A DNA stretch of 64,000 nt, taken from Devosia marina. GTDB lineage: Bacteria; Pseudomonadota; Alphaproteobacteria; Rhizobiales; Devosiaceae. Shown here piece after piece: positions 10,608 through 32,871 of this stretch. The stretch's first letter is position 1. Each line of letters opens with the position of its first letter. The stretch lies in the NCBI RefSeq assembly GCF_009758415.1, contig NZ_WQRF01000001.1:1426001-1490000 (forward strand), read 5' to 3'. Under the pieces are notes generated by a model. That model was given only the letters and a program-made list of their open reading frames with translations, was not told where the DNA came from and made no database searches. The position numbers and the translations under genes are program-made.

Positions 10608-10672
10608 ATCATTTCTCCTCGCCCCATTGTTCGCCAGCGGCGGGCATTGGGGCAAGGGAAATGCTTGCGCGA

Positions 10673-12355: not shown

Positions 12356-12379
12356 CCCGGGCGTCCCTTATCGCCCGGG
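12356..12379 (-). terminator. intercistronic stem-loop after the binding-protein gene
   Basis: A perfect 8-bp stem (12356-12363 with 12372-12379) around an 8-base loop lies 14 bases beyond the binding-protein stop. No T run follows on the minus strand, so it is more likely a 3'-end stabiliser or partial terminator that lowers expression of the downstream ATPase and permease than a full stop. Confidence 0.55.
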
Positions 12380-12393
12380 AATGCAGGCCGCTA

Positions 12394-13425: not shown

Positions 13426-13566
13426 GATTTTGACGTCCCCAGTTTTGTTATGAGGAGAAATCAAGCGCAGTCACCGCCCGCGCGCAAGTTTTTTCTGACC
13501 ATTTTGGCATCAGACAGCATTGCTGCCCAATTTCTCAGCAACCTGCTGCCTCTTTCTCCGCCAGGC

Positions 13567-14447: not shown

Positions 14448-15377
14448 CTAAAGCTCGAACGGCGCCTGTAGCGACTGGATCGCCTTGATGGCGGCCGAGG
14501 CACGGTTTTCCACGCCCAGCTTGGCATAGACCTGCTCCAGGTGCTTGTTCACCGTGCGCGGGCTGAGGCCCAGAATATCGCCAATATCCTTGTTGGACTT
14601 GCCGCGCCCGATCCAGAGCAGCACTTCGCTTTCGCGCTGCGTCAGACCGAATTGCTGGCGCAGGACCTCTTCCTGCCCCTCCTCCTGGGCGCGCGCGATG
14701 CGGAACAGGTATTCGTCCCCGCCAACAACGCCCAGAAAGGCAAAGTGCAGGCCGATGCTCTCTCCTGTCTTGAGATCGAACCCCCCCCCCGGCGTTGGTC
14801 GCTCGCCTTCGGCCAGGCGCCAGTCGACAAAGCACCGCGACATGCTGAGTTGGACCCCCTGCCCCAGACCCGAGCGATCCAGCAGCCGATTGGCCTGGGG
14901 TGTCGACCAAAGCACCAGCCCCTCTGCGGCAAAGGCCACCAGGTGCCGTCCGGCAGCATCCAGAGCAATGCGGGCGCTTTGCGCCCGCCGCGCATTGGCA
15001 AGATGCACCCTTATCCGGGCGCGCAATTCATCCACGTTGATCGGCTTGGAGAGATAATCCACCCCGCCGCTTTCGAGCGCATGCACTACATGCTCGGTCT
15101 CGGTCAGCCCGGTCATGAAGATGATTGGCACATGGACCAGCGGCGGCAGTGCTTTCATCTGCCGGCAGGTTTCAAAACCATCCAGCCCCGGCATCACCGC
15201 ATCCATCAGCACCACGTCCGGCGTGACCCGTTCAATGATCTTGAGCGCTGCCTCGCCGCTGCGGGCGACAAGCACGGTGACACCCGCCTGTTCGAGAGCC
15301 GTGGTCAGAAAACCAAGCGACTCCGGCGAGTCGTCGACCAGAAGAACGATGTCCTGTTCCTGCTCAATCCGGCTCAT
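14448..15377 (-). CDS. response regulator with LuxR-type DNA-binding domain
   Basis: A 309-residue regulator in three parts. The receiver (about residues 8-128) has the acidic pair D15/D16, phospho-acceptor D59 (VVLMDAVMPGLDG), T in IFMTG and lysine in YLSKP. A middle segment (about 135-235) resembles the PAS-like part of activators without a named family. A LuxR/NarL helix-turn-helix ends the protein (FGLTQRESEVLLWIGRGKSN, then SPRTVNKHLEQVYAKLGVENR). The gene overlaps the stop of the large permease-kinase gene by 14 bases, so the two form one two-component system. A run of ten C at 14781-14790 lies in the middle segment. Confidence 0.9.
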   Translation of the reverse strand: MSRIEQEQDIVLLVDDSPESLGFLTTALEQAGVTVLVARSGEAALKIIERVTPDVVLMDAVMPGLDGFETCRQMKALPPLVHVPIIFMTGLTETEHVVHALESGGVDYLSKPINVDELRARIRVHLANARRAQSARIALDAAGRHLVAFAAEGLVLWSTPQANRLLDRSGLGQGVQLSMSRCFVDWRLAEGERPTPGGGFDLKTGESIGLHFAFLGVVGGDEYLFRIARAQEEGQEEVLRQQFGLTQRESEVLLWIGRGKSNKDIGDILGLSPRTVNKHLEQVYAKLGVENRASAAIKAIQSLQAPFEL

Positions 15378-18300
15378 GGCCTACCCGCTCCAGCGTTTCG
15401 GCGAAGCCGTCGAAATCAAAATTCTGCATATGCTGCCTTAGCGCCTCGACAAGTGGCAGATTGGCCGGATCGGCCGCCAGCTCGGCCAGCTTGTCATCAA
15501 TGCCCCTGACATGGCCGATTTGACTGAGTGCGGCCAGGTCACGCAAGTGTTCTGCGCCCGGAGACCGCATTTGTCTGTCCCGCGGTGCAGGTTTGTCAGG
15601 CGCTTCATGGACCCATTCCAACCCCAGATGCGTGCCCAGCCGGTCGACAAGCTGGTTAAGATCGAAAGGCTTGGCCAGCGTATCACTATGTCCGGCATCC
15701 GCACTGGTGGGATTGGCGCCATCCCCGATATTGGCCGAGAGCATGATCATCGGCGCCACCACGCCACGAGCACGCATGGCCTGCACCAGCTCCCAGCCGC
15801 TCATGCCCGGCATGCGGATGTCGACAAAGAACAGATCGGGCCGCGCCGTCTCGATGGCGGCAAGACAGGACTGACCATCGACCGCCGTAAGAACTGTAAA
15901 GCCGAGCGGGGCGAGCATTTCGTGCATCAACTGGCGGTGGTCGGCATTGTCATCAACGACCATGATGGTGCGCCGCCTGCCCTGATAGCCAATGATCTGC
16001 TGCACGGGCGCCATGCGCTTGGCCGGCCGCTCAACCTTAGACAGCATCAGCCGGGCCTGGAAGCGCGTGCCCTCTCCCACGGCGCTGGACACGGTGATCT
16101 CACCGCCTAGCGTCTCGGTCAGCAGCTTGGTGATGGTGAGGCCCAGCCCCAGCCCCGGTGTAAAGCGATTGCGCTCCGCCTCGCCACGGACAAAGGGCTC
16201 AAAGACATGATCAAGATCGGCCGCCGCGATGCCGCTGCCGCTATCCTCAACTGTGAAAGTCGCCACCTGCATGCGATAGCCGACGCTGAAGCTGACATGA
16301 CCAGCACTCGTGAACTTGATGGCGTTGGATAGGAGGTTGACCAGGATTTGCCGCAACCGTTTCTCGTCGGTCCGCACATAGTCGGGTAGCGCACGGGCGC
16401 GCTCATGGCGGAATTCGAGCCCCTTGGCCTCGGCCTGCAGGCGGAACATGTCGACGATCTGATCCAGGAAATCCTGGATATTGACCTCGCTGGCATAGAC
16501 CTGCAGCCGCCCGGCTTCTATCTTGGAAATGTCGAGCAGCCCGTCGATCAGTCCCGACAGATGCTCGGCGCTGCGGCGAATGACCTGTGCCGAGCCGCGA
16601 CGGTTCTCCGGCAATTGCCCGTCGCGTTCGAGAATTTGCGCATAGCCCATCACCGCATTGAGCGGCGTGCGCAATTCATGGCTGAGGCCGACGACATAGC
16701 GCGACTTGGCCTGATTGGCAGCCTCGGCCTTTTCCTTGGCGCGCTGCAATTCGGCGTCGGTTTTCGAGTGCGCGTCGATTTCCTTGAGGAGCAACGTATT
16801 CTGACGCGAGCTTTCCTCCTCGGCCACCAGGCGACTGTCATGCGCCAGCACCAGGAACCAGGTCATGACCCCAGCGGCGACCGCAAAGACAAAGAACACC
16901 ACCAGTAGCGTGCCGCCGACGACATCGGCGGTATTGGGCGCCGAGCGACTGGCAAAATAGTAGATCAGCCCCAGAATGCCGCCCAGAATCGCCGTGGCAA
17001 TAGCCATGGAAATGCCATAGCGCCCCAGGCGGGACCGTAATTTGTCGATGGCCCATTGCGGCAGGATACTCGCCGCCACCGCATGGGTCTGCGCGCGGAA
17101 ATGCGCGTGTGGCTTGCACATATCGTGGCAACGCGCATCGAGCGAGCAGCACAGCGAACAGATGGGCGCCGCATAGGCCGGGCACCAGGCCATGTCCTCG
17201 GGCTCGAAGGGATGCTCGCAGATCGAGCAGGTAAGCGTTTGCCTGGACTGCCACTGCTTGCGCGGCTTGCGGGCGAGATAATACTTGCCCTTTGTTGCCC
17301 AGGCGATGGCCGGTGAGGCGATGAAGCAAACGATCAAGGCGATATAGGGTGAGAGCGCCGAGGCCATCTCGCCAAAGGCGCCGAAATGGGCGGTCAGGGC
17401 GATGACGACAGACAGGAACATCGAGCCGACGCCGACCGGATTGATGTCATAAAGATGGGCGCGCTTGAACTCGATGCCCGGCGGCGCCAGGCCCAGGGGC
17501 TTGTTGATGAACAGATCCGCAGAAATCGAGCACAGCCAGGCCATGGCAATGATCGAGAAGATGCCCAGCGTCTCTTCGAGCAGCCGATAAATGCCCAGCT
17601 CCATGAGCAACAGCGCAATGGCGACATTGAACAGCAGCCAGACCACACGCCCTGGATGGCTGTGGGTCAGACGCGAGAAGAAGTTCGACCAGGCGAGCGA
17701 GCCGGCATAGGCGTTCATCACATTGATCTTGAGCTGGCTAACGACGACAAACACCGCCATCAGCATCAATGCCACGAACTCATTGGGGATCATGTAGCCA
17801 AACGCGACGGCATACATATGCCCCGGCTCGGAGGCATGTTCGGGCGAAACACCCACTGAAAGTGCGAGAAAGGCCAGGAACGAGCCGGCAATAAGCTTTG
17901 GCGCACCGACCACCACCCAGCCGGCACCTGCCAGGAAGATGCCGATCTTGTGCCGCCATTTCGGTGCCCCTTCGGCCGGCAGGAAGCGCAGGAAGTCGAC
18001 CTGCTCGCCGATCTGGGTCATCAGGGCCAGGATGACCGCCGATGCGGCGCCAAACTTGGCGATTTCGAATGGCGCGATACTGCCCGCAGCGCCTTCCGGC
18101 TCTCCGAGCCCGGCAAAGGCGCGCCACAGGTCGAACTTCTCCCAATCCATGAAGGCGATGAAGAAGAAGGGCAGGATATTGAGCACGATCCAGATCGGCT
18201 GGGTCAGCATCTGGAACGAGGAGATCATGCGGATGCCATGTGTCACCAGCGGGATTACCACCAGCGCCGAAATGATATGGCCGATCCAGAGCGGAATACC

Positions 18301-18732
18301 GAAGGCCAGTTCCAGCGCGCTCGACATGATCGAGGCCTCGATGGCGAAGAGGATGAAGGTAAAGCTGGCATAGATCAGCGAAGTGATCGTCGAGCCGATA
18401 TAGCCAAAGCTGGCCCCGCGCGTGAGCAGGTCGACATCGACGCCATGCCGGGTCGCGTAGCGCGAGATCGGCACGCCAACCAGCAAAATGGCGATGGAGG
18501 CGACGAGAATCGCAATCAACGCATTGGTGGTGCCGTAGGAAAGTGTAATGGCCCCGCCGATCGCCTCCAGTGCAAGGAAGGAAATGGCGCCGATAGCGGT
18601 CTGGGAAATCCGGTCATTGGAGAAGCGCCGAGCCGACTTGGCGGTAAAGCGCAGCGCATAGTCTTCCAGGGTCTGGTCGGCCACCCAGCGATTATATTCG
18701 CGCCTGACCGGAATGATCCGCTGCCGTGCCAT
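15364..18732 (-). CDS. hybrid sensor histidine kinase with an NCS1-permease sensory domain
   Basis: A 1122-residue fusion. Residues 1 to about 485 resemble a nucleobase:cation symporter-1 (purine/cytosine permease family) with about twelve membrane segments. Residues 500-540 carry a cluster of eight cysteines (C502, C505, C517, C525, C528, C529, C535, C539), like a zinc ribbon. Two more membrane segments follow (about 573-593 and 605-630), then a coiled linker. The kinase core has H685 in SHELRTPLNAVMGYAQ, the N-box LVNLLSNAIKFT and G-boxes (DSGSGI, GLGLGL). A receiver with D927/D928 and D971 ends it, plus a ~100-residue tail. It lies divergently next to the urea importer genes, so it may sense urea or a nucleobase through its permease part. 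That is inference; the architecture is plain. Confidence 0.9.
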   Translation of the reverse strand: MARQRIIPVRREYNRWVADQTLEDYALRFTAKSARRFSNDRISQTAIGAISFLALEAIGGAITLSYGTTNALIAILVASIAILLVGVPISRYATRHGVDVDLLTRGASFGYIGSTITSLIYASFTFILFAIEASIMSSALELAFGIPLWIGHIISALVVIPLVTHGIRMISSFQMLTQPIWIVLNILPFFFIAFMDWEKFDLWRAFAGLGEPEGAAGSIAPFEIAKFGAASAVILALMTQIGEQVDFLRFLPAEGAPKWRHKIGIFLAGAGWVVVGAPKLIAGSFLAFLALSVGVSPEHASEPGHMYAVAFGYMIPNEFVALMLMAVFVVVSQLKINVMNAYAGSLAWSNFFSRLTHSHPGRVVWLLFNVAIALLLMELGIYRLLEETLGIFSIIAMAWLCSISADLFINKPLGLAPPGIEFKRAHLYDINPVGVGSMFLSVVIALTAHFGAFGEMASALSPYIALIVCFIASPAIAWATKGKYYLARKPRKQWQSRQTLTCSICEHPFEPEDMAWCPAYAAPICSLCCSLDARCHDMCKPHAHFRAQTHAVAASILPQWAIDKLRSRLGRYGISMAIATAILGGILGLIYYFASRSAPNTADVVGGTLLVVFFVFAVAAGVMTWFLVLAHDSRLVAEEESSRQNTLLLKEIDAHSKTDAELQRAKEKAEAANQAKSRYVVGLSHELRTPLNAVMGYAQILERDGQLPENRRGSAQVIRRSAEHLSGLIDGLLDISKIEAGRLQVYASEVNIQDFLDQIVDMFRLQAEAKGLEFRHERARALPDYVRTDEKRLRQILVNLLSNAIKFTSAGHVSFSVGYRMQVATFTVEDSGSGIAAADLDHVFEPFVRGEAERNRFTPGLGLGLTITKLLTETLGGEITVSSAVGEGTRFQARLMLSKVERPAKRMAPVQQIIGYQGRRRTIMVVDDNADHRQLMHEMLAPLGFTVLTAVDGQSCLAAIETARPDLFFVDIRMPGMSGWELVQAMRARGVVAPMIMLSANIGDGANPTSADAGHSDTLAKPFDLNQLVDRLGTHLGLEWVHEAPDKPAPRDRQMRSPGAEHLRDLAALSQIGHVRGIDDKLAELAADPANLPLVEALRQHMQNFDFDGFAETLERVGHEPD

Positions 18733-18864: not shown

Positions 18865-18880
18865 TACGTCAATCGACGTA
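18865..18880. promoter_or_regulatory. inverted repeat, candidate operator upstream of urtA
   Basis: TACGTC and GACGTA form a perfect 6-bp dyad around AATC, in the 235-base gap between the divergent permease-kinase gene and urtA, 88 bases before the urtA start. The size suits a dimeric regulator such as the LuxR-type response regulator encoded nearby. I saw no sigma-54 promoter (GG-N10-GC) in the gap. Confidence 0.4.
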
Positions 18881-18967: not shown

Positions 18968-20263
18968 ATGAAAAACTTCAGCGCGAAAAGCGCTTTGCTC
19001 GCCGCCGCACTTGCCGGCAGCGTCTCGCTGTCTGCAGTGCCGGTCATGGCGCAGGACGACACTATCAAGGTCGGCATTCTGCACTCGCTCTCGGGCACCA
19101 TGGCGATTTCGGAAACCACGCTCAAGGACACCATGCTGTTCCTGATCGAACAGCAGAATGCCAAGGGCGGCGTGATGGGCAAGATGCTCGAACCCGTCGT
19201 GGTCGACATCGCGTCGGACTGGCCGCTGGCCGCCGAGTTGGCCCGTCAGCTCATCGAAGTCGATGAAGTCGATGCGGTGTTTGGTTGCTGGACCTCGGTT
19301 TGCCGCAAATCGGTGCTGCCGGTGTTTGAAGAACTCAATTCGCTGCTCTTCTACCCGGTGCAGTACGAAGGCGAAGAATCCCAGCGCAACGTGTTCTACA
19401 CCGGTGCCTCCCCGAACCAGCAGGCCATTCCAGCCGTCGACTATCTGATGAACGAAGAGGGCGTCGAGCGCTGGGTTCTGGCTGGCACTGACTATGTCTA
19501 CCCCCAGACCACCAACAAGATCCTCGAGCAGTACCTGCTCGACAAGGGTGTGGCCGCCGAAGACATCATGATCAACTACACGCCCTTCGGTCATTCCGAT
19601 TGGCAGACCATTGTCTCCGACATCGTCGCCTTTGGTTCGGAAGGCAAGAAGACCGCCGTTGTCTCCACCATCAATGGTGACGCCAACGTGCCGTTCTACC
19701 GCGAACTGGGCAACCAAGGCGTTGCCGCTGAGGACATCCCCGTGGTGGCCTTCTCGGTGGGTGAAGAAGAACTCTCGGGCTTCGACACCACCCCGCTGGT
19801 GGGCCATCTGGCCGCCTGGAACTACTTCATGAGTGTCGATACCCCGGAAAATGAGCAGTTCATCGCTGACTGGCAGGCGTTCATCGGTTCGGAAGACCGC
19901 GTCACCAATGACCCGATGGAAGCTCACCTGATTGGCTTCAACCTCTGGGTCAAGGCCGTGGAAGCGGCCGGCACCACCGATGCTGACGCCGTCATCGACG
20001 CCATTGTCGGTCTCGAAACCCCGAACCTGACCGGCGGCATGGCCACCATGCTCCCCAACCACCACATCACCAAGCCCGTGCTGATCGGTGAAATCCAGGA
20101 TGACGGCCAGTTCTTCGTGGTCTGGGAAACCGAAGACCTCGTGCCGGGCGATGCCTGGTCCGACTTCCTGCCAGAGAGCGCCATGCTCGAGGCCGATTGG
20201 ACCGCCCCGATCAACTGCGGCAACTACAACACCGAGACCGAGAGCTGCGGCTCGGCAATGTAA
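18968..20263 (+). CDS. urtA: urea ABC transporter substrate-binding protein
   Basis: A 431-residue periplasmic protein with a signal peptide (MKNFSAKSALLAAALAGSVS, cleavage after VMA at residue 28). The mature part starts DDTIKVGILHSLSGTMAISE, as in UrtA of the FmdD/branched-chain amino acid binding-protein family, and VFGCWTSVCRKSVLPVFEE is a UrtA hallmark. It delivers urea (or short amides) to the UrtBC channel. The ATG at 18968 has AGAGGGA just upstream and puts the signal peptide at the N-terminus; an in-frame start at 18899 does not. First gene of urtABCDE, probably nitrogen-regulated. Confidence 0.95.
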   Translation: MKNFSAKSALLAAALAGSVSLSAVPVMAQDDTIKVGILHSLSGTMAISETTLKDTMLFLIEQQNAKGGVMGKMLEPVVVDIASDWPLAAELARQLIEVDEVDAVFGCWTSVCRKSVLPVFEELNSLLFYPVQYEGEESQRNVFYTGASPNQQAIPAVDYLMNEEGVERWVLAGTDYVYPQTTNKILEQYLLDKGVAAEDIMINYTPFGHSDWQTIVSDIVAFGSEGKKTAVVSTINGDANVPFYRELGNQGVAAEDIPVVAFSVGEEELSGFDTTPLVGHLAAWNYFMSVDTPENEQFIADWQAFIGSEDRVTNDPMEAHLIGFNLWVKAVEAAGTTDADAVIDAIVGLETPNLTGGMATMLPNHHITKPVLIGEIQDDGQFFVVWETEDLVPGDAWSDFLPESAMLEADWTAPINCGNYNTETESCGSAM

Positions 20264-20342: not shown

Positions 20343-21962
20343 ATGCTGATCCTCCGCGCACTCCGCCTGGTGCTTCTGGCCCTGCCGTTCCTGCTGTTGC
20401 CGTCCAACGCCATCCGCGCACAGGACGCAGCAACCGACATTCCTGCCGCCATTCAGGCCATGGGCGAGGCCAATCTGCGCGAACTCGAACAGATCGTCGC
20501 CGACCTTGCCGCAACCGGGAGCGATACGGTCGTTCCGGTCCTGACCGCCCTGGGCGATGGCAATCTCTATCTCGAAGAAACCTCCGGCGCCGTCCTGATT
20601 GAACGCGGTTCGACCTATCTCGAACCGCTTTCAGGCGAGGCTGTCGAACTGGGTGCCGATGCTGATCTCTCCAAGATCCGCGTCAATAACGGCTTGCGAC
20701 GCGATATCGCCGCCGCCCTCGCCGGAATGACGCTGATGAGCGACAGCCCCGCCCGCCGCCTGACGGCCGCGCAGGGATTTCTGGCCAATCCCGACCCTGC
20801 CAATATCCCGCTGCTCGACGAGGCCATTGCGGCCGAGACCGATGCCAATGTCCTCAAGGCCATGCAAGCGGCCCGGGCCGTGACCATTCTGGGCGACGAC
20901 GAGCAGAGCGTTGCGGACCGGAAGGCCGCCGTGCCGCTGGTCGCATCCGGCGCGGGGCGCAACGCCTTGACCATCCTCAACTCCGCGCTCAATGGCGCAC
21001 CCGAAGAACTGGCGCCGACGATCCAGTCGGCCATTGCCGGTCTCGAACAGGAGCGCGCCATCTGGGGCGCCCTGCAGAATGTCTGGTTTGGCCTCTCGCT
21101 CGGCTCGGTCCTGCTGCTGGCCGCCATTGGTCTGGCCATCACCTTCGGCGTCATGGGTGTCATCAACATGGCGCATGGTGAAATGGTCATGCTGGGGGCC
21201 TACACCACCTTCATCGTCCAGTTGGTCATCCGCCAGAATTTCCCCGGCCTGCTCGACTATTCCCTGCTCATCGCCCTGCCCTGCGCCTTCCTGGTCACCG
21301 GTGCGATCGGGGTCGGCATCGAGCGCGGCATCATCCGCTGGCTCTATGGCCGCCCGCTTGAAACCCTGCTCGCCACCTGGGGCCTGTCGCTGATCCTGCA
21401 GCAGACCGTGCGCTCGATCTTCGGCCCCACCAACCAGATGGTCATCGCCCCGACCTGGATGTCGGGCTCGACCGAATTCTTCGGTCTCTCGATTACCTAT
21501 GGCCGGTTCTGGATCGTCATTTTTGCCATCATTGTCTTCCTGTTGCTACTGATGGTGCTCAATCGGACCGCGCTGGGCCTGCAGATGCGTGCCGTGACTC
21601 AAAACCGCCGCATGGCCTCGGCCATGGGCATCCGCACCCCCTTTGTCGACGCCATGACCTTCGGCCTAGGCTCCGGCATCGCCGGGCTGGCCGGTGTGGC
21701 GCTGACCCAGATCGACAACATCTCCCCCAATCTGGGCCAGAACTACATCATCGACAGCTTCATGGTCGTGGTCTTTGGCGGTGTCGGCAATCTCTGGGGC
21801 ACGCTGGTCGGCGCGTTGACCCTTGGCGTCGCGAACAAGTTCCTCGAACCCTATGCTGGCGCGGTTCTGGGCAAGATCCTGATCCTGGTCCTCATCATCC
21901 TCTTTATTCAAAGGCGGCCGAGAGGGCTGTTCGCCCTCAAGGGTCGGGCGGTGGAACAATGA
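20343..21962 (+). CDS. urtB: urea ABC transporter permease UrtB
   Basis: A 539-residue LivH-type permease. After a signal peptide (LLALPFLLLPSNAIRAQ) comes a ~220-residue periplasmic extension of helical, HEAT-like repeats (RDIAAALAGMTLMSDSPARR and similar), normal for UrtB. The membrane part begins near residue 250 (WFGLSLGSVLLLAAIGLAIT) with the LivH motif FGVMGVINMAHGEMVMLGAY. The ATG at 20343 is chosen since the signal peptide follows it; the upstream open frame overlaps urtA. It forms the urea channel with UrtC. Confidence 0.93.
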   Translation: MLILRALRLVLLALPFLLLPSNAIRAQDAATDIPAAIQAMGEANLRELEQIVADLAATGSDTVVPVLTALGDGNLYLEETSGAVLIERGSTYLEPLSGEAVELGADADLSKIRVNNGLRRDIAAALAGMTLMSDSPARRLTAAQGFLANPDPANIPLLDEAIAAETDANVLKAMQAARAVTILGDDEQSVADRKAAVPLVASGAGRNALTILNSALNGAPEELAPTIQSAIAGLEQERAIWGALQNVWFGLSLGSVLLLAAIGLAITFGVMGVINMAHGEMVMLGAYTTFIVQLVIRQNFPGLLDYSLLIALPCAFLVTGAIGVGIERGIIRWLYGRPLETLLATWGLSLILQQTVRSIFGPTNQMVIAPTWMSGSTEFFGLSITYGRFWIVIFAIIVFLLLLMVLNRTALGLQMRAVTQNRRMASAMGIRTPFVDAMTFGLGSGIAGLAGVALTQIDNISPNLGQNYIIDSFMVVVFGGVGNLWGTLVGALTLGVANKFLEPYAGAVLGKILILVLIILFIQRRPRGLFALKGRAVEQ

Positions 21963-21999
21963 GTGTTCTGATCTGCACAAAGACCACCGGAGAACTTGC

Positions 22000-23211
22000 A
22001 TGCTGACCCAAGCCCTGTTCCGCGCACTCGACAAGAAGGCCATCTGGGTCATTGCCATCTTCCTGGCCGTCGCCGTTCTTGTGCCCATGGCCAATCTGCT
22101 GATCCCGCCGGGCCAGTACGGGCACGTGCCGACCTATCTCGTCTCGCTGATGGGCAAATATCTGGCCTATGCGATCCTCGCGCTCGCCCTCGATCTGGTC
22201 TGGGGCTATTGCGGAATCCTTTCGCTCGGACACGGCGCCTTCTTCGCGCTGGGGGGCTATGCAATGGGCATGTATCTGATGCGCCAGATCGGCAGCCGCG
22301 GCGTCTATGGCAATCCGGTGCTGCCCGACTTCATGGTCTTCCTGAACTACTCCGAACTGCCCTGGTTCTGGCTGGGCATGGACAATTTCTGGTTCGCCAT
22401 GCTGATGGTTGTGTTCGTTCCCGGCCTGCTGGCCTTTGTGTTCGGTTTCTTTGCGTTCCGCAGCCGCGTTACGGGCGTCTATCTCTCCATCATCACCCAG
22501 GCGATGACCTTCGCCCTGCTGCTGGCATTTTTCCGCAACGATATGGGCTTTGGCGGCAATAACGGGCTGACCGACTTCAAGGATATTCTGGGTGTGTCCG
22601 TGCAGGCGCAGAGCACCCGCGCCACGCTGTTCGCCGCCACCGCCATTGCCCTGGCGCTCTCGGTGCTGGTCTGTTCGATGATCGTGAATTCCAAGCTGGG
22701 CAAGGTGATGATCGCGGTGCGCGACGCGGAAAGCCGCACCCGCTTCCTCGGTTATCGCGTTGAATATGTGAAGCTCTTTGCCTTCACGGTTTCCGCCATC
22801 ATGGCTGGCATTGCTGGCGCGCTCTATGTCCCGCAGGTGGGCATCATCAACCCCTCAGAATTTGACCCGGCCAATTCCATCGAAGTGGTGATCTGGACGG
22901 CCGTGGGTGGACGCGGCACGCTGATCGGCCCGATCATCGGCGCCATCGTGGTCAATCTGGGCAAATCCTGGTTCACAACCACCCTGCCCGAGCTCTGGCT
23001 GTTTGCCCTGGGCGCGCTGTTCGTCTTCACCACGCTGTTCCTGCCCAAAGGCATTGTGGGCCTGTGGCACCAGGCGTGGGGCAGGATGCGCCGCAAAACC
23101 GAGCACGCGGAACGGCCCGCCCCACCCACGCCCGCCCAGTCCGCAGATATCGAGCGCGGCGAAGACCCCGCCAGCTTCGGCCACGAAGCGCAACCCAAAC
23201 CGGCGGAGTAA
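22000..23211 (+). CDS. urtC: urea ABC transporter permease UrtC
   Basis: A 403-residue LivM-type permease with about nine or ten membrane segments. It carries the family motif LDLVWGYCGILSLGHGAFFALGG split over residues 66-88 and the C-terminal AVGGRGTLIGPIIGA. It pairs with UrtB. The last ~40 residues are charged and proline-rich and probably lie in the cytoplasm. A GGAG lies before the ATG at 22000, 37 bases after urtB. UrtD begins five bases after its stop. Confidence 0.94.
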   Translation: MLTQALFRALDKKAIWVIAIFLAVAVLVPMANLLIPPGQYGHVPTYLVSLMGKYLAYAILALALDLVWGYCGILSLGHGAFFALGGYAMGMYLMRQIGSRGVYGNPVLPDFMVFLNYSELPWFWLGMDNFWFAMLMVVFVPGLLAFVFGFFAFRSRVTGVYLSIITQAMTFALLLAFFRNDMGFGGNNGLTDFKDILGVSVQAQSTRATLFAATAIALALSVLVCSMIVNSKLGKVMIAVRDAESRTRFLGYRVEYVKLFAFTVSAIMAGIAGALYVPQVGIINPSEFDPANSIEVVIWTAVGGRGTLIGPIIGAIVVNLGKSWFTTTLPELWLFALGALFVFTTLFLPKGIVGLWHQAWGRMRRKTEHAERPAPPTPAQSADIERGEDPASFGHEAQPKPAE

Positions 23212-23216
23212 AGGCC

Positions 23217-23966
23217 ATGAGCGCGCACACCGATACCATGCTCTATCTTGACGGCGTCTCGGTTGCCTTTGACGGCTTCAAGGCGATCAACAACCTCGCC
23301 ATCATCGTCAAGCCAGCGGAGATGCTGGCAATCATCGGCCCCAATGGCGCGGGCAAGACCACCATGATGGACATTATCACGGGCAAGACGCGGCCTGACA
23401 CTGGCCAGGTATTGTTCGATGGCCGTACTGACCTGACCAGGCTGGATGAAGCCGCCATCGCCAATCTGGGCATTGGTCGCAAGTTCCAGAAGCCGACGGT
23501 TTTCGAGAGTCAAACCGTCTGGGACAACCTGGAAATGGCGCTGAAGAAGCCGCGCGGCATCTTCTCGACCCTGTTCTACACCGCCAGTGACGACGATGTG
23601 GCGCGGATCACCGAAATCCTCGAGACGGTCCGTCTCATCGCACGCAAGGACGAACTCGCCGCCAATCTCAGCCACGGCCAGAAACAATGGCTCGAAATCG
23701 GCATGTTGTTGGCGCAGGATCCAAAGCTCTTGCTGGTCGATGAACCGGTGGCCGGCATGACTGACAGCGAAACCGAGGAAACCGCAAAGCTGCTGCGCGA
23801 AATTTCACAGACCCGCTCGGTGGTGGTGGTCGAGCATGACATGAGCTTTGTCCGCGAATTGGGCTCGCGCGTCGTCTGCCTTGCAGAAGGATCGGTGCTC
23901 GCCGAAGGCTCACTCGATCAGGTCAGCGCCAATCCGGTTGTTATTGAACGCTATCTGGGGAGGTGA
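23217..23966 (+). CDS. urtD: urea ABC transporter ATP-binding protein UrtD
   Basis: A 249-residue LivG-type ATPase. Walker A is at residues 41-48 (GPNGAGKT); the signature is LSHGQ (151-155) in place of LSGGQ, as is usual in UrtD (NLSHGQKQWLEIGM). Walker B is LLLVDEPVAGM, H-loop VVVEHDMSF. The start at 23217 has GGAG ten bases upstream and excludes an out-of-place extension into urtC. Confidence 0.94.
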   Translation: MSAHTDTMLYLDGVSVAFDGFKAINNLAIIVKPAEMLAIIGPNGAGKTTMMDIITGKTRPDTGQVLFDGRTDLTRLDEAAIANLGIGRKFQKPTVFESQTVWDNLEMALKKPRGIFSTLFYTASDDDVARITEILETVRLIARKDELAANLSHGQKQWLEIGMLLAQDPKLLLVDEPVAGMTDSETEETAKLLREISQTRSVVVVEHDMSFVRELGSRVVCLAEGSVLAEGSLDQVSANPVVIERYLGR

Positions 23967-23968
23967 GA

Positions 23969-24673
23969 ATGGTAGCTGCACTCTCAATCAATTCCATCGA
24001 CCTACACTACGGTGCCGCACAGGCGCTCAAGGGCATCTCCCTCACCTGCCAGCCGGGAAAGATCACGGCCGTGCTGGGTCGCAATGGCGTGGGCAAGTCG
24101 TCCACCTTGCGGGCCATCACCGGTATCAATCACCTATCTGCTGGTGACATCACCTTTGGCGAGGAAGTGCTCAAAAGAACTCCACCCTATAAGCGTGCCC
24201 GCATGGGCATCGGCTATGTGCCGCAGGGCCGCGAGATCTTCCCCCTGCTCACCGTCAAAGAGAATCTCGAGACCGGCTATGCGGGGCTTGCACGGTCGGA
24301 GCGCAACGTTCCCGACTACATTTTTGAACTCTTTCCGGTTCTGAAATCCATGCTGGGCCGTCGGGGGGGCGACTTGTCGGGCGGTCAGCAGCAACAACTG
24401 GCCATTGGCCGCGCGCTGGTCACCCGGCCCAAGGTGCTGGTGCTCGACGAGCCTACCGAGGGCATTCAGCCTTCGATCATCAAGGATATCGGCCGCGCGC
24501 TGCAATTTCTGCGCGATGAGAAGGGCATGACCATCCTTTTGGTAGAACAATTCCTCGATTTCTGCCGCGAAATTGCCGACGACATCTATGTCATGGATCG
24601 CGGCGAGATCATGCATACCGGCCCTGCCAGCGACCTTGACCTGCCCGACGTGCGCAAGCACCTGATGGTCTAG
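23969..24673 (+). CDS. urtE: urea ABC transporter ATP-binding protein UrtE
   Basis: A 234-residue LivF-type ATPase. Walker A is at residues 37-45 (GRNGVGKSS), signature LSGGQ at 136-140, Walker B VLVLDEPTEGIQPS, H-loop LLVEQFLDF; the Q-loop has YVPQGREIFPLLTV, standard for this subunit. The ATG at 23969 has GGAGG five bases upstream, which also contains the urtD stop; an in-frame GTG at 23963 would overlap the ribosome site itself. Last gene of the urt operon. Confidence 0.94.
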   Translation: MVAALSINSIDLHYGAAQALKGISLTCQPGKITAVLGRNGVGKSSTLRAITGINHLSAGDITFGEEVLKRTPPYKRARMGIGYVPQGREIFPLLTVKENLETGYAGLARSERNVPDYIFELFPVLKSMLGRRGGDLSGGQQQQLAIGRALVTRPKVLVLDEPTEGIQPSIIKDIGRALQFLRDEKGMTILLVEQFLDFCREIADDIYVMDRGEIMHTGPASDLDLPDVRKHLMV

Positions 24674-25141: not shown

Positions 25142-25984
25142 ATGAAATTTGCCGAGGCGGAAATCGTGAACGGCCCGATATTGCAACGCGCGCGCGGCAT
25201 CGGGCGCATCACGGCCAAGCAGGTCGACGAGCGCACGCGCCTGGACACTTTGTTCCAGGAAGGGTGTGGCAAGATTCGCCTGCCCAATACCCATTCGAGC
25301 AGCCTGGAAGCCGTGCTGATCAACACGGCGGGCGGCATAACCGGTGGCGACCATCTGCTCTGGGGCGCCGAGCTGGCGCCGGATGGCCACATGGTCCTGA
25401 CCACCCAGGCTTGCGAACGCAGCTATCGCTCGACCGGCGATTTCGGGCGCGTGGAAACTAGACTGAAAGTCGGCGCCGGCGGCCATCTCGACTGGCTGCC
25501 CCAGGAAACCATTCTCTTTGCTGCCAGCAAGCTCGACCGCCGGCTGGAGGTGGATCTGGACGAAGGCGCCACCCTGACCGCGATCGAGGCGGTGCTGCTG
25601 GGACGGGACGCCATGGGCGAGGATGCCGCCGACGCCCTGCTGCGCGACAATTGGCGTATCCGTCGCAATGGCCAACTGGTCCACGCCGAGGCCACCCAAT
25701 TGCACGCAACCGCTGAGGAGCGGCAAAGCCTTTCGCTATTGAATGGAAACAGGGCCTTCGCCAGCGTGCTGCATATAGCCGCGACGCCGGACCGCGCCAG
25801 CGCCATCGGCGACCGGGTCCGCGCCATGCTGCCCGCGGACCAGGCGATTGCCGTCAGCGTCAACCAATCCCGTCTGGTCATACGTGCCATGGCGCCAACC
25901 GGGCTTGCCCTGCGCCGCATGATCGTACCAGTCTTGCTCGAACTCACCGCAGCGGGCAGCCTGCCCCGCCTCTGGCATCTTTAG
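25142..25984 (+). CDS. ureD: urease accessory protein UreD
   Basis: A 280-residue cytoplasmic protein of the UreD/UreH family, the scaffold on which UreF and UreG load nickel into apo-urease. Family motifs are ILINTAGGITGGD-like (VLINTAGGITGGD, residues 59-71), TTQACERSYRS and the ETILFAAS strand. It starts the urease operon; ureA follows after nine bases. The ATG at 25142 is preceded by GGAT at eight bases. Confidence 0.94.
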   Translation: MKFAEAEIVNGPILQRARGIGRITAKQVDERTRLDTLFQEGCGKIRLPNTHSSSLEAVLINTAGGITGGDHLLWGAELAPDGHMVLTTQACERSYRSTGDFGRVETRLKVGAGGHLDWLPQETILFAASKLDRRLEVDLDEGATLTAIEAVLLGRDAMGEDAADALLRDNWRIRRNGQLVHAEATQLHATAEERQSLSLLNGNRAFASVLHIAATPDRASAIGDRVRAMLPADQAIAVSVNQSRLVIRAMAPTGLALRRMIVPVLLELTAAGSLPRLWHL

Positions 25985-25993
25985 GACCGGAAG

Positions 25994-26296
25994 ATGAATC
26001 TCACGCCTCGCGAAAAAGACAAACTGCTGATCTCGATGGCCGCCATGGTGGCGCGCCGGCGCCTTGAGCGCGGCGTCAAGCTCAACCATCCCGAAGCCAT
26101 CGCGCTGATCACCGACTTCGTTGTGGAAGGCGCGCGGGATGGCCGCGCCGTCTCCGAACTCATGGAGGCCGGAGCCCATGTCGTCACCCGCGACCAGGTC
26201 ATGGAAGGCGTCGCCGAAATGATCCACGACGTGCAGGTCGAAGCCACATTCCCCGACGGCACCAAGCTCGTCACCGTTCATCAGCCGATCCGATAA
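25994..26296 (+). CDS. ureA: urease gamma subunit
   Basis: A 100-residue protein that matches the full length of urease gamma ([58 protein letters not shown]). It is part of the (alpha-beta-gamma)3 enzyme that hydrolyses urea to ammonia and carbamate. A separate gene for gamma and beta is the usual arrangement outside Helicobacter. AGGA lies seven bases before the ATG. Confidence 0.97.
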
Positions 26297-26306
26297 AGAG
26301 GCCCAA

Positions 26307-26885
26307 ATGCTCAAGCGCAGCCTGCTGACCCTGGCAATATCCATCGCCGCTACCCTGCCGGCCTTTGCCCATCTCGACCCGCCTGAACATGGTTCGATTG
26401 CCGCCGGCTTCAGCCACCCCCTGCTTGGCCTCGACCATATTCTGGCGATGGTCGCGGTTGGTCTTTGGGGGGCGATGCAGGGTGGCCGCGCAGTCTGGCT
26501 GGTGCCGACGGCCTTTATCGGCACCATGGCGCTGGGCTTTACGGCAGCCATTGCCGGCATGCCCCTGCCCTTTGTCGAACCGGTCATCCTGGCCTCGGTG
26601 ATCTTCATCGGCATGGCCATCGCGCTGGCCCTGCCGATTCCCTCTTCGGCGGTCGCCGCCATGGTCGGGTTCTTCGCTTTCTTCCACGGCCATGCCCATG
26701 GCGGTGAAATGGGAGGCGCCGGCGCCTGGGAATTCGCCATTGGCTTTATCGTCGCCACTGCCGCCCTGCATGCGGCGGGCATTGGCGCCGGCCTGGTGCT
26801 GGCGCGGTCGAGCGGCAAGGTCCTGACCCGTCTTGCCGGTGCGGCGACGGCGCTTGGCGGTCTGTATCTGGCAATCGGCGGCTGA
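26307..26885 (+). CDS. ureJ: HupE/UreJ family nickel permease-like membrane protein
   Basis: A 192-residue membrane protein with a signal peptide (ending PAFA-H) and six hydrophobic segments. It has the family signature [20 protein letters not shown] and the histidine cluster [15 protein letters not shown]. HupE/UreJ proteins import nickel, the urease cofactor, and the position between ureA and ureB agrees with that. AGAGG lies before the ATG. Confidence 0.9.
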
Positions 26886-26895
26886 GGAGATGGAC

Positions 26896-27201
26896 ATGAT
26901 CCCCGGAGAAGTCATCCCTGCCAACGGCGACATTGAGCTCAATGTCGGGGCCGAACAGGTCGTGCTGGAGGTCGCCAATACCGGCGACCGCCCGGTCCAG
27001 GTCGGCTCGCATTATCATTTCTTCGAAGCCAATGCGGGGCTCCGCTTTGACCGAGACAAGGCGCGTGGCATGCGCCTTGATATCGCAGCGGGCACGGCCG
27101 TACGTTTCGAGCCCGGTCAGGCGCGCGAGGTTCGGCTGGTGCCGATCTCAGGCGACCGGCGCATTTTCGGTTTTCGGCAACAGATCATGGGAGATCTCTG
27201 A
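26896..27201 (+). CDS. ureB: urease beta subunit
   Basis: A 101-residue protein matching full-length urease beta ([52 protein letters not shown]). GAGGAG is six bases before the ATG at 26896, so that ATG is preferred to the one at 26890, which abuts it. Ten bases follow the hupE/ureJ stop. Confidence 0.97.
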
Positions 27202-27295
27202 ACCCTGTGGCCGGGCGCGATATTGTCCCGGCGGGGCATGGCGCAGCCAGGTGAAAGCTGGTTAAAGGGCACGTCTCGAAAAAGAGGATCGCGCC

Positions 27296-27697
27296 ATGAC
27301 CACCGAACCCAGCAAGGAAGCCCAGTTCAAGCAACGCTTCATTTCCGTTGTGGCGGATCTGCAGCAGAACGGCATCGATGATCCGGAAGCCATGGCCCAT
27401 ATCGGTGGTCTGGCAGTCGAGTTGTCCGATGCGCTGAAACAGAAGAGCTGGGTCGCGGTCAAGCAGAGCATGACCCCGGCCATCTATGACGAGTTGCTCG
27501 CGAGCTTCCAGAAGCGGGGCAACGAATATCACAAGGATGGCCGCACCAAACTGGCCTACGCCATCCAGCTTCTGAGCGTTTCGCTGGTCGCCTTTACCCA
27601 GCGCAACGATGCCGACATTGCGGCAGGCGAAAAGCTGGTGGACCAGTTGATCGATCAGGCCGCAACAAGATACCGCCAGGTCCGTCCAAAGCACTGA
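27296..27697 (+). CDS. unknown protein between ureB and ureC
   Basis: A 133-residue soluble, mostly helical protein without signal peptide (starts MTTEPSKEAQFKQRF; contains MAHIGGLAVELSDALKQKSW). GAGGA lies seven bases before the ATG. It sits in the urease operon 94 bases after ureB, on the same strand, in a place that is normally empty or holds a small unknown gene in related bacteria. I recognise no domain. It could be a folding helper of urease or an unrelated passenger; its codon use looks like its neighbours'. Confidence 0.75.
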   Translation: MTTEPSKEAQFKQRFISVVADLQQNGIDDPEAMAHIGGLAVELSDALKQKSWVAVKQSMTPAIYDELLASFQKRGNEYHKDGRTKLAYAIQLLSVSLVAFTQRNDADIAAGEKLVDQLIDQAATRYRQVRPKH

Positions 27698-27730
27698 TTG
27701 GGCTGGGCGCGACTGGCTTGAACAACGTGT

Positions 27731-27752
27731 TCCGGACTCTTGCCAGTCCGGA
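27731..27752 (+). repeat. perfect 8-bp stem-loop upstream of ureC
   Basis: TCCGGACT and AGTCCGGA form a perfect stem around CTTGCC (27739-27744), 33 bases after the unknown gene and 63 bases before ureC. With a one-base bulge it extends by three pairs. There is no T run, so it is more likely an mRNA-processing or stability element than a terminator. Confidence 0.45.
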
Positions 27753-27814
27753 CACCTTAGGCCAAAGTTACGCCCGGGAAGCCTTTGTTCCGGGCCATTC
27801 GAACGGGACACGAC

Positions 27815-29524
<1,710 letters not shown>

Positions 29525-29633
29525 CGACATCGGCATGGCTGATCGACCGGCAGCGATTGTCACTCCCTTCAAACGCCATGATTATGGGTGTGCAATAACT
29601 GCCGTTCGTTCCCTGTTGCCAAAGGACAGTTTC

Positions 29634-30056
29634 ATGCCCTCGCCCAGAGCGATGCTTGTCATCGGTTTTTCCCTGTTCGTCCCTCTTGCGGCTTTCGCCC
29701 AGGCCGAGGTCACGACCCTCGCCACTGTGCCGACAGTGCCTGCAGCGTCGGCCAGCCTGACATTGACCCTCGAAAGCCAGAGCGATATCGAGCGGCGCAC
29801 GGTTAGCTATCTTTGTGAGGATCAGCAGGTTCTGACCGTACACTATATCAACGCCGCCCCCAATTTCCTGGCCATTGTACCGGTCGAAGGCCAGAGCCTG
29901 GTCTTTGCAACCACGCTTTCAGCCTCCGGTGCGCGCTATGTTTCGGGGCCCTATGAATGGTGGAGCCATCAGGGCGAAGCCACCCTGCGTGACCTGATGC
30001 AGGACGAGGACGCCGAGCCGCTCGTCACCTGCACCGAAGCCAACAACACACCCTGA
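29634..30056 (+). CDS. MliC-family lysozyme-inhibitor-like periplasmic protein
   Basis: A 140-residue exported protein (signal peptide MPSPRAMLVIGFSLFVPLAA, cleavage after AFA). The mature part has the MliC (PF09864) pattern: VSYLCEDQQVLTVHYINAAPN, then LVFATTLSASGARYVSG with the conserved SASGARY, WW(S)HQGEATL, and a final cysteine (LVTC) able to bond the first. Family members inhibit C-type lysozyme. There is no lipobox, so it is soluble (PliC-like) rather than a lipoprotein. It lies between ureC and ureE, which is odd. AAAGGA precedes the ATG. Confidence 0.8.
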   Translation: MPSPRAMLVIGFSLFVPLAAFAQAEVTTLATVPTVPAASASLTLTLESQSDIERRTVSYLCEDQQVLTVHYINAAPNFLAIVPVEGQSLVFATTLSASGARYVSGPYEWWSHQGEATLRDLMQDEDAEPLVTCTEANNTP

Positions 30057-30064
30057 CCGCTGGC

Positions 30065-30652
30065 ATGGACCCAGCAATCTCCGCCGAACTGTTTCCGCAT
30101 GTGCGCATCGTCATGGGCACGGTTATCGGCCTGGGTATTACCAGGCTGCTGATGACCGTTGCCGGAATCATCCAGCATCCCCATCGTGGCAAGATTTCTG
30201 CCCTGCACATGCTCTGGATCGGCTCGATGCTGCTCGAGCTGGTGTTGTTCTGGTGGTGGGAATTTGCGCTGCACAGGGTGGAGATTTGGAATTTCGGCAT
30301 TGTCCTGTTCATCCTGACCTATGCCATCACCCTCTTCCTGATCGCGGCCCTGCTCTCCCCCGATAGCGTCTCCGAGTACAAGGGCTATGAGGACTTCTTC
30401 CTCAAGCGTCGTCATTGGTTTTTTGGCCTTTTGGGTGCAACCTTCATCCTCGACACCATCGATACGCTGATCAAGGGCCAGGCCCATTGGAGCCGGTTCG
30501 ACTGGAGCTATTTTGGCCAGGTTCCGGTAGGACTGGCGCTATGTATCTTCGCCTGGCGCTATGCCGACCGGCGCCTGCACCTGTCCATCGTTGGAGTGCA
30601 CATCACCTACCAACTCTTCCTCATTTTCCGTTTCTTCACCACGATCAGTTAG
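30065..30652 (+). CDS. polytopic membrane protein of unknown function in the urease operon
   Basis: A 195-residue protein with five or six predicted membrane segments (about 15-35, 45-65, 75-95, 118-135, 150-165, 175-192) and no signal peptide. Notable are the Trp-rich ELVLFWWWEFALHRVEIW and a charged cytoplasmic loop EYKGYEDFFLKRRHW. Eight bases after the MliC-like gene and six before ureE, so clearly co-transcribed. I recognise no family. A transport or sensing role linked to urea, nickel or ammonia is imaginable but unsupported. Confidence 0.75.
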   Translation: MDPAISAELFPHVRIVMGTVIGLGITRLLMTVAGIIQHPHRGKISALHMLWIGSMLLELVLFWWWEFALHRVEIWNFGIVLFILTYAITLFLIAALLSPDSVSEYKGYEDFFLKRRHWFFGLLGATFILDTIDTLIKGQAHWSRFDWSYFGQVPVGLALCIFAWRYADRRLHLSIVGVHITYQLFLIFRFFTTIS

Positions 30653-30658
30653 TTCCCC

Positions 30659-31132
30659 ATGTTCCGAGCCACTGCCCATTTGCCCGCCGATCACGGCAAG
30701 TCCCCGATCATCGACACCATCACCCTGGCCCATGACGAGCGCAGGCTGCGGCGCAAGCTGCTCACCGGGGCCAAAGGCACGGAAGTCATGGTGGATTTTC
30801 CCGCGACCGTGACCCTCGACCACATGGGGGCGCTGGAACTGGAGAGTGGTGAGTTGGTCAGCGTGCTGGCGGCCCAGGAACCGCTCTACGAAATTCGCGC
30901 CCGGGATCCCGGACACTTGCTGCGCCTCGCCTGGCATATCGGCAATCGCCACACCCCGGCGCAACTGGAGCCCGATCGCATCCTGATCAAGCGCGACCAC
31001 GTCCTCAAGACCATGCTGGAAGGTCTGGGCGCGGGCGTCGCAAATGTCACCGAACCCTTCTTTGCAGAGCATGGCGCCTATCATGCCCACGCCCATGGCG
31101 ATGGTGGCCATGCGCTGTTGAACCGCAAGTGA
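30659..31132 (+). CDS. ureE: urease accessory protein UreE
   Basis: A 157-residue nickel metallochaperone. The N-terminal peptide-binding domain is followed by the metal-binding domain with GNRHTP (residues 95-100, H98 as nickel ligand). The C-terminal tail from about 136 is His-rich ([15 protein letters not shown]), so extra Ni2+ can be bound. It delivers nickel to UreG. The ureF start overlaps its stop by four bases. Confidence 0.94.
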
Positions 31133-31785
31133 GCGCCGATCTGCAAAAGCTGCTGACCTGGATGTCACCGGCCTTCCCGGTCGGGGCCTTTGCCTGGTCC
31201 GCCGGTCTTGAGACCGCTATTGCGCAGGGCACAGTGTCCGACCGTGCGACCACCCAAGACTGGATTTCCGGCGTGCTGCATCACGGCAGCCTCAAGACCG
31301 ACGCGATCCTGCTCGCCCATGCCCACAGAGCTCATGCCGACAAGGCAAAGCTGGCTGAACTGGCCGATCTCTGCCTCGCCTTGACCGCCGCCCATGAGCG
31401 GCACGCCGAAACCACCATCACCGGCAACGCCTTCGTGCTCGCCAGTGCGGCATGGCCGGCCGCAACGCCTGTGCCGCTGCCCGAGCCCTGCCCCTACCCC
31501 ATCGCCGTTGGCGCATTGGCTGGTGCTCATGGCATTGAGCGCCGTGATACGCTGATCGCCTTTCTCGCCACGACGGTCCATAGTCAGGTGTCGGTCGCCG
31601 TGCGCCTCGTGCCCATCGGGCAGGCTGACGGCCTCGCCATCATGGCGGCGTTCGAGCCGGGCATCGCGCATATGGCCGATCTGTGCCTTCATGCCGCACT
31701 GGACGATATTGGCAGCGTGGCCTATGGCGCAGATATTGCGCAGATGCAGCACGAAACGCTGAGAACGAGGATTTTCCGGTCATGA
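31129..31785 (+). CDS. ureF: urease accessory protein UreF
   Basis: A 218-residue helical protein, the link between UreD and UreG in the nickel-insertion complex. Family motifs are [21 protein letters not shown] at the N-terminus (split at residue 20) and [13 protein letters not shown] in the middle. Start is GTG, overlapping the ureE stop as GTGA. The next gene overlaps its stop as ATGA, so translation is coupled in both directions. Confidence 0.94.
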
Positions 31786-32213
31786 GCATGCTTTTCGCCT
31801 CCTTCATGTTCATCGGCCTGTTCGCCGTGTCGATTGCCCATCTGATGTGGGCCTTCGGCCGTACCTGGCCGATCCGCGACGAGAAACTGCTGGCCCAGAC
31901 CGTGGCGGGCTTCAAGGACATCGAGCGCATGCCACCCAGACTGGCTTCGCTCGCCGTCGCCGTAGCCACCTTCACCGCCGGTTGCTTCGCCCTGGCTCTG
32001 GCCGATCACGACAGCGGCGGATGGCTGCTCAATCTGGCCGGTTTCGGCTTCGCTGCCGTGTTCCTGGCCCGCGGCATCATCGGCTATACACCCTGGTGGG
32101 CGGGGCTGACCCCCGAACCCAATTTCCGTCTCAATGACCGCCGGGTCTATTCCCCGCTCTGCCTGTTCCTGGGGCTGGGCTTCCTGGCACTTATCTATCT
32201 GCGTCTCGTCTGA
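31782..32213 (+). CDS. DUF3995-like membrane protein between ureF and ureG
   Basis: A 143-residue protein with about four membrane segments (about 3-25, 55-75, 80-100, 122-142). The pattern [13 protein letters not shown] near the N-terminus and [18 protein letters not shown] fit the DUF3995 family, which I recall with moderate certainty. Coupled to ureF by an ATGA overlap and 19 bases before ureG. Position suggests a link to urease maturation or nickel, but no function is known to me. Confidence 0.75.
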
Positions 32214-32232
32214 AACACATATGGAGCAAGTC

Positions 32233-32871
32233 ATGTCCAAGAGCCTCAACGGACCCCTGCGCATCGGCATTGGCGGGCCAGTCGGCTCGGGCAAGACCAC
32301 CTTGTGTGAAATGCTGCTCAAGGCCATGCGCGACCGCTATTCCATGGCCGTGGTCACCAATGACATCTACACTCAGGAAGACGCGCTGATCCTGTCGCGC
32401 GTTCAGGCGATTTCCGAGGACCGCATTGTCGGCGTCGAAACCGGCGGTTGCCCGCACACCGCCATTCGCGAAGACGCTTCGCTGAACCTGGCCGCCATTG
32501 ACGATCTGAACCGAAAGTTTCCCGATCTGGACATCGTGCTGATCGAGAGCGGCGGTGACAATCTGGCGGCCACCTTCTCGCCCGATCTGGCAGACCTCAC
32601 CATCTATGTGATTTCGGTCGCGCAGGGCGAAAAGATCCCGCGCAAGGGCGGCCCCGCGATTTCCCGCTCCGACCTCCTGGTCATCACCCACACCGACCTG
32701 GCGCCCTATGTCGGCGCCAGCCTCGAAGTGATGGAGAGCGACACGCAGAAGGTGCGCGAAGGCCGGCCCTATGTCTTCACCGACCTGCTGCGCCGCGAAA
32801 GCCTCGACCACATCATCGGCTTTATTGAGAAGCACGGTGGCTTCGTGGCGGAGGCAGCGGAACAAGCGTGA
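32233..32871 (+). CDS. ureG: urease accessory protein UreG (GTPase)
   Basis: A 212-residue SIMIBI-class GTPase that powers nickel insertion. Walker A is GPVGSGKT (residues 15-22), the nickel-binding CPH motif is C73-P74-H75 ([14 protein letters not shown]), and ESGGDN and the guanine motif ITHTDL (NKxD-like) follow. GGAG six bases before the ATG at 32233 favours it over an ATG at 32221. The GNAT gene overlaps its stop by four bases. Confidence 0.96.

Follow-up and report, generated by a model that had tools for sequence, protein, structure and literature searches.

An NCS1-like transporter domain fused to a hybrid histidine kinase beside urea and amide uptake genes: a candidate urea and short-chain amide sensor of Devosia and other Pseudomonadota

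Introduction

What does a histidine kinase with a transporter-like head sense, and which genes does it control, when it is encoded back to back with the genes for urea uptake? The question arises from a 64,000-nucleotide stretch of DNA of Devosia marina (the window), for which an initial annotation, made from the letters alone, proposed a permease-kinase fusion that senses urea, allantoin or a nucleobase.

Domain architecture of the kinase and its regulator

The kinase ORF is intact and uninterrupted at exactly 15364-18732(-). Its computed domain make-up runs, from the N- to the C-terminus, from an NCS1-like/LeuT-fold domain through a segment with eight cysteines and a TM hairpin/signal helix to the HisKA, HATPase_c and receiver domains:

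15364..18732, minus strand: hybrid sensor histidine kinase, 1122 aa
17266..18732, minus strand: residues 1-489, NCS1-like (LeuT-fold) transporter domain (AlphaFold2 and Foldseek, hhalign, profile, intermediates)
17098..17235, minus strand: residues 500-545, Cys-rich segment with 8 invariant Cys (invariant columns and model)
16753..17031, minus strand: residues 568-660, helical hairpin (568-597) leading into a long signalling helix (DSSP on the AlphaFold2 model)
16510..16707, minus strand: residues 676-741, HisKA dimerisation/phosphoacceptor domain (PF00512, 1e-17)
16042..16371, minus strand: residues 788-897, HATPase_c catalytic domain (PF02518, 4.5e-26)
15637..15966, minus strand: residues 923-1032, receiver (PF00072, 7e-23)
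14448..15377, minus strand: response regulator, receiver plus LuxR/GerE HTH, 309 aa (PF00072, 7e-29; PF00196, 2e-18)

The C-terminal half of this architecture is as initially annotated, in that HisKA, HATPase_c and Response_reg all score far above the Pfam cut-offs in the kinase and the adjacent gene encodes a LuxR-type regulator with Response_reg and GerE domains. Further, conservation is seen in the H-box, the N-box region and the ATP-binding motifs of the kinase and is weaker in the receiver and the C-terminal ~75 residues. The locus thus has what is expected of a two-component system, i.e., a HisKA domain with a conserved H-box, an HATPase_c domain, a receiver and an adjacent regulator. 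Residues 1-660 of the kinase have no Pfam match above cut-off, and neither a PAS nor a STAC domain was matched by Pfam in the protein, the content of the library with regard to a STAC model being uncertain. An HPt domain in the C-terminus is ruled out by the absence of a Pfam HPt match, for which the kinase protein only was searched, and by the weak conservation there. Open frames that exceed 1000 aa and share this layout are retained in hundreds of genomes, far beyond chance; these hundreds of conserved full-length relatives rule out a chance ORF, while the lack of stops and the retention of the catalytic motifs rule out a degraded kinase.

The regulator and kinase genes share 14 nt. Of the 116 kinase loci scored, 112 have a homologue of the regulator, which immediately follows the kinase in the loci that were read. 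Downstream of the regulator, the window also encodes an Lrp/AsnC-type regulator (about 13567-14070(-)) and an NMT1/THI5-type ABC transporter (10673-13464(-)); a similar NMT1-like binding protein is also encoded behind the regulator at a further locus (L186).

The N-terminus as a diverged NCS1 domain

The kinase N-terminus returned nothing from direct Pfam, NCBIfam or single-sequence PDB searches, and PF02133 at the Pfam gathering score was not matched by the kinase protein, by anything in its own genome or by the divergent kinases tested. Since direct searches failed, the relationship had to be argued through intermediates, profiles and structure. First, a search with the N-terminus alone recovers a stand-alone permease of 473 aa (L136), with 23-24% identity to kinase residues 11-412, which itself scores PF02133 at 2.8e-9. 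A nearer stand-alone relative (L187) reaches 157 bits with the family profile and 27-31% pairwise identity, and scores PF02133 at 3.5e-9. Second, a profile made of the kinases together with these two permeases matches the CodB crystal sequence (E 5e-4), and hhalign, run with an alignment of kinases only, relates them to three NCS1 proteins with 96% probability over 404 columns. Third, an AlphaFold2 model built from 52 sequences (pLDDT 84.7, pTM 0.83) has CodB (7qoa) and Mhp1 at Foldseek PDB ranks 1-5 (E 4e-10 to 3e-8), with SSS, Nramp and APC structures ranking behind the NCS1 structures; in Pfam, the kinase has no SSS-family match at E<1. Judged by these computed homologies and the predicted fold, the N-terminus is a diverged NCS1 domain outside the reach of Pfam's model. 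The earlier description of a complete NCS1 domain therefore stands with respect to fold and homology but not as a domain recognizable at the PF02133 threshold.

In comparison with the NCS1 permeases (CodB, Mhp1; PF02133), the kinase domain shares the fold and a distant homology over about 400-450 residues but, besides being sub-threshold in Pfam, is fused to signalling domains and has invariant residues of its own. The motifs R105-x3-FG-x2-GS and D246-x2-R249 are common to the kinases and stand-alone permeases, whereas Q240, E243 and Q244, in the region of the D-x2-R motif, are invariant in the kinases and absent from two stand-alone relatives.

Because its transporter domain is predicted not to be of the SLC5 type, the kinase is to be placed, on modelled structure and sequence, outside the SLC5/STAC family of CbrA, CrbS and RpuS. 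This bears on the parallel that was first drawn with CbrA of the Pseudomonas CbrA/CbrB system. The parallel is fair functionally, both proteins joining a histidine kinase to a LeuT-fold transporter domain, which in CbrA binds and transports a nutrient (PMC7096432, PMC13022988), but it does not extend to the transporter family or, judged by Pfam and the model, to the linker: CbrA has an SLC5 (SSS) domain of 13 TM followed by STAC and a PAS linker, whereas in the present kinase a Cys segment and a TM hairpin occupy the position of the STAC/PAS linker behind an NCS1 domain. Additionally, the partner CbrB and its regulon are unrelated to urea.

The cysteine-rich segment, likewise noted at the outset, contains eight cysteines that are invariant in 32 sequences and are spaced as C502-x2-C505, C517, C525-x2-C528-C529, C535 and C539. 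In the AlphaFold2 model it forms two short strands followed by a helix, and in a PDB sequence search it resembled only zinc-finger-like proteins, and these weakly (E 2-7). A treble-clef/RING-like site or sites is the probable interpretation of the modelled segment, the binding of zinc being inferred. From here, the hairpin and the long helix (about 568-660) run into HisKA.

Genomic neighborhood in the window

The genes on the other side of the kinase are as follows:

18968..20263, plus strand: urtA, urea ABC transporter substrate-binding protein (Peripla_BP_5, 3e-156; homologous locus annotated urtA)
20343..24673, plus strand: urtB, urtC, urtD, urtE (tblastn synteny, annotated homologous loci)
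25142..32871, plus strand: urease block ureD, ureA, ureJ-like, ureB, ureC, ureE, ureF, ureG (sequence recognition, synteny), with two small unrelated ORFs between genes

The urtA and kinase starts lie 235 bp apart on opposite strands, so that the divergent urtABCDE genes followed by urease, as initially reported, are seen in the window. Within the urease block, the Rfam model 5_ureB_sRNA matches with 144 bits at 27967-28256(-), antisense to the urease alpha-subunit gene ureC; this match may reflect only the conserved coding sequence under the model.

The nucleoside hydrolase gene that was also pointed out is present (PF01156, 341 bits, 47969-48862(+)), yet it lies 29 kb from the kinase; the same genome has three further matches to this family. 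The gene offers some support for a reading in which a nucleobase, hydantoin or allantoin is the ligand of the NCS1 domain, as does the fold, which is that of the cytosine and hydantoin permeases. The breakdown of these compounds yields urea, and urea uptake and urease would then be the last step of the pathway. The neighborhoods of the kinase in other genomes, however, weigh against this.

Distribution and conserved linkage

Relatives of the kinase occur in 47 of 136 Devosiaceae genomes, 27/385 sampled Alphaproteobacteria genomes and 55/398 sampled Pseudomonadota genomes. A pattern scan of the contigs of one genome per species confirmed 521 kinase-encoding stretches, and 531 plasmid records match the kinase, 342 of them from Klebsiella. 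Some Devosia genomes have a second kinase of the family elsewhere, 54-55% identical (G047:C1:1136060-1138006 and G072:C1:1687045-1688988).

For the computed linkage, loci were fetched first and their neighbors inspected afterwards. Among the 44 close Devosiaceae kinases, 43 lie <=2.3 kb from urtA on one contig; the 44th is split across contigs, with its N-terminal piece adjoining urtA. A genuine urtA is present in all of the loci scored in the Devosia/Rhizobium/Agrobacterium group (79/79). Divergent kinases, mostly from other families, adjoin urea or amide genes in 34 of 37 cases, the partners being urt/ure (12), fmdDEF with fmdA (and fmdB, amiE; 20) or AmiS/UreI with fmdA (2), and three of the 37 loci have no urea or amide gene nearby. 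In representatives of these neighbors, Pfam confirmed the domains FmdA_AmdA, AmiS_UreI, Zn_ribbon_8 and CN_hydrolase. Homologues thus adjoin urt/ure genes repeatedly, as the neighborhood survey suggested in the initial annotation was meant to establish. Neither of the two computational outcomes that the annotation had named as refuting it, an N-terminus that does not match NCS1 and homologues that never occur near these genes, was obtained.

Two loci have a shorter form of the kinase, of about 890 aa and without the receiver (L189, 7499-10156(-); L190, 8163-10847(-)), which adjoins AmiS/UreI, FmdA, another regulator and a receiver-HisKA-HATPase protein encoded separately. This arrangement amounts to a phosphorelay that has been rearranged and has a channel in place of the ABC transporter. 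A plasmid gene of Moraxella osloensis (L242, 9914-11557(+)), annotated as an allantoin permease, lies beside fmdA/fmdB and is immediately followed by a gene for an IS5 transposase. It was rejected as a stand-alone NCS1 relative, as it represents the permease and Cys half of such a kinase, and it is probably an insertion-truncated kinase.

Partner types are intermixed in the tree of the kinases, where the urt label requires 6 changes, at least 5 of which are forced by supported branches. This intermixing indicates that the sensor family has served urea and amide regulons repeatedly, which in turn points to a shared carboxamide ligand; urea and the short-chain amides have the carboxamide group in common. 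Within Devosiaceae, urtA is present in 46 of the 47 kinase-bearing genomes versus 55/89 of the others (not corrected for relatedness). As 57 genomes of this family have urtA without a urt-type kinase, the kinase is not required for urea uptake and is an optional controller of it.

Behind the nearer of the stand-alone permeases (L187, 7949-12984(+)) lie, in line with it, a hydrolase of the nitrilase family with a double nitrilase domain, an AmiC-like binding protein and AmiR; the permease is a candidate for an amide-transporting branch of NCS1.

These neighborhoods render the sensing of a nucleobase, hydantoin or allantoin very improbable. In the loci inspected, gene sets for purines, pyrimidines or allantoin were not seen to recur next to the kinase, whereas fmdDEF/fmdA and AmiS/UreI do recur, and neither belongs to purine breakdown. 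Further, the nearest stand-alone relative sits in an amide operon, and the kinase invariants that two stand-alone relatives lack also speak against a conventional NCS1 ligand of this kind. The preference for urea or a short-chain amide rests mainly on the recurrent fmd/AmiS partners, on this amide operon and on the shared carboxamide, and to these ligands the original list of urea, allantoin and nucleobase can be narrowed by inference. No residue that cleanly separates urt-type from fmd-type sensors was found convincing, and the ligand reading is an inference made without experiment or ligand-bound structure.

It could also be asked if the ligand is read by the NCS1 domain at all. BceS, for instance, reads the BceAB transporter, and an ABC transporter of the UrtA/FmdD type is also encoded at almost all of the kinase loci; accordingly, the kinase might read UrtABCDE/FmdDEF, or loaded UrtA/FmdD, with the NCS1 domain merely a scaffold. 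However, three ure-only loci and two AmiS/UreI-fmdA loci lack such a binding protein beside the kinase, and the NCS1 core keeps many invariants, including both of the motifs shared with the permeases, beyond what a scaffold needs. We consider this improbable and retain direct sensing of urea or amides by the NCS1 domain as the preferred reading.

A candidate operator before urtA

The intergenic region contains one feature that could connect the regulator to urtA:

18865..18880, no strand assigned: candidate operator, perfect palindrome TACGTC-AATC-GACGTA, 87 bp before the urtA ATG and 132 bp before the kinase start

Alignment of the Devosia intergenic regions shows a conserved block, GTTACGTCAATCGACGTATAGGG, amid drifting sequence; it holds TACGTC-N4-GACGTA, the single such site in the window. 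The computed co-occurrence with the kinase is close. The exact palindrome is found once per genome in 44 of 136 Devosiaceae genomes, the same 44 in which the urt-type kinase occurs, and is absent from the other 92, 57 of which have urtA. The corresponding Fisher value, 9e-37, ignores relatedness and is not to be taken literally. In 43 of the 44 genomes the palindrome precedes urtA. In the remaining one (G033) the exact palindrome, which is a chance match, lies in apparent coding sequence, and the urtA promoter site has one mismatch. Where DNA has been inserted between kinase and urtA, as in another Devosia genome (G044) and on a Sinorhizobium plasmid (L243), the site is still about 100 bp from urtA.

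More broadly, the consensus TACGYN6RCGTA occurs exactly before 59/88 urt-type and 14/20 fmd-type kinases, versus 0.13% of mononucleotide shuffles. At 26 of the 88 urt-type loci there are at least two mismatches to it, and it is missing at the ure-only and AmiS loci. No ordinary sigma-70 promoter was found by consensus. This conservation fits a LuxR-type regulator, with its binding to the palindrome inferred, and a regulon of essentially one operon; control of urtA is supported by the joint occurrence of operator and kinase from genome to genome, the regulation itself being predicted from sequence.

Comparable arrangements are known from CrbS/CrbR and RpuS/RpuR, which likewise have a hybrid kinase with receiver, a LuxR-type regulator and a single-nutrient regulon, and in the case of CrbR an inverted-repeat operator before the assimilation genes (PMC5715377, PMC9100948). 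The combination of LuxR-type regulator and inverted-repeat operator seen with CrbR and RpuR is met here by the GerE domain and the palindrome before urtA, with binding predicted. However, those systems respond to acetate and pyruvate through an SLC5/STAC sensor, and the ACTU motif differs from TACGTC-N4-GACGTA.

A proposed mechanism

In our estimation, the kinase and its regulator quite likely constitute a dedicated two-component system for urea and short-chain amides that activates the adjacent uptake and hydrolysis genes. Urea, or in the sister systems formamide or other short-chain amides, would be bound in the LeuT-type central pocket of the NCS1 domain, which would act as a receptor or slow transporter. 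The resulting conformational change would pass through the Cys-rich, probably zinc-bound cytoplasmic element and the TM hairpin to the kinase. The kinase would then phosphorylate the LuxR-type regulator encoded next to it, by a phosphotransfer route that is inferred. The regulator, in turn, would bind TACGTC-N4-GACGTA and activate urtABCDE (and ure), activation as the direction of the response being likewise an inference.

One version of this explanation, overlapping with it rather than excluding it, would have the NCS1 part as an active importer of urea or amides, so that the kinase reports flux and not occupancy alone. The full transporter fold is retained, and CbrA combines histidine transport with kinase activity (PMC7096432, PMC13022988). 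Nevertheless, the locus already encodes a dedicated ABC transporter of high affinity, and active import, while possible, appears rather unlikely to us.

Related urea and amide systems

The fmd genes beside many of the kinases have a known counterpart in Methylophilus fmdCABDEF, which likewise combines a formamidase, FmdB and an ABC transporter for short-chain amides and urea; the transporter takes up urea and short-chain amides, and both formamide and urea induce the cluster (PMC10781810). For that cluster, the review mentions a putative positive regulator but no kinase (PMC10781810). The amiC/amiR system differs in that AmiR is an ANTAR antiterminator, as opposed to the LuxR-type regulator found here.

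In Klebsiella, the UTS (urtABC/amiF) of pKPN-307-type plasmids is a cluster from which a 48%-identical kinase and a regulator are divergently encoded; the Klebsiella plasmid kinases are ~48% identical among the matches listed. On one such plasmid (L241; CP024508.1 64017-85963) the kinase (9992-13372) and regulator (13335-14255) diverge from urtABCDE-amiF, and the operator consensus is found between them as TACGTCATTTAACGTA. As far as the available portions of the papers on UTS extend, these describe the transporter and amidase only (PMC5506382, PMC13060141), the word "kinase" being absent from those of PMC5506382 and "histidine kinase" from those of PMC13060141.

Significance

The open full-text literature that was searched yielded no account of a kinase with an NCS1 head, nor of one that controls urt/fmd genes; subscription literature lay mostly outside this search, and absence is no proof. 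The transporter-headed kinases described in that literature are SLC5/STAC types, to which NCS1 adds a second transporter family with a different linker. We lean towards regarding these proteins as a large, undescribed Pseudomonadota receptor family, in which an NCS1 head is joined to a hybrid kinase by a conserved zinc-finger-like adaptor and serves as a general carboxamide (urea/formamide) sensor. Such a sensor would repeatedly have changed places between urea and amide operons and would have been disseminated by conjugative plasmids, among them the Klebsiella ones with the urea transport system. For that system a role as a niche factor has been discussed, and the portions of the sources available mention no regulator. 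The kinase also occurs in the agriculturally relevant genera Rhizobium, Agrobacterium, Sinorhizobium and Devosia. More generally, it makes signalling from a LeuT fold to a kinase comparable across independent fusions, and the predictions that follow from it are a signal specific to urea/amides, a single-site regulon and a directly testable operator.
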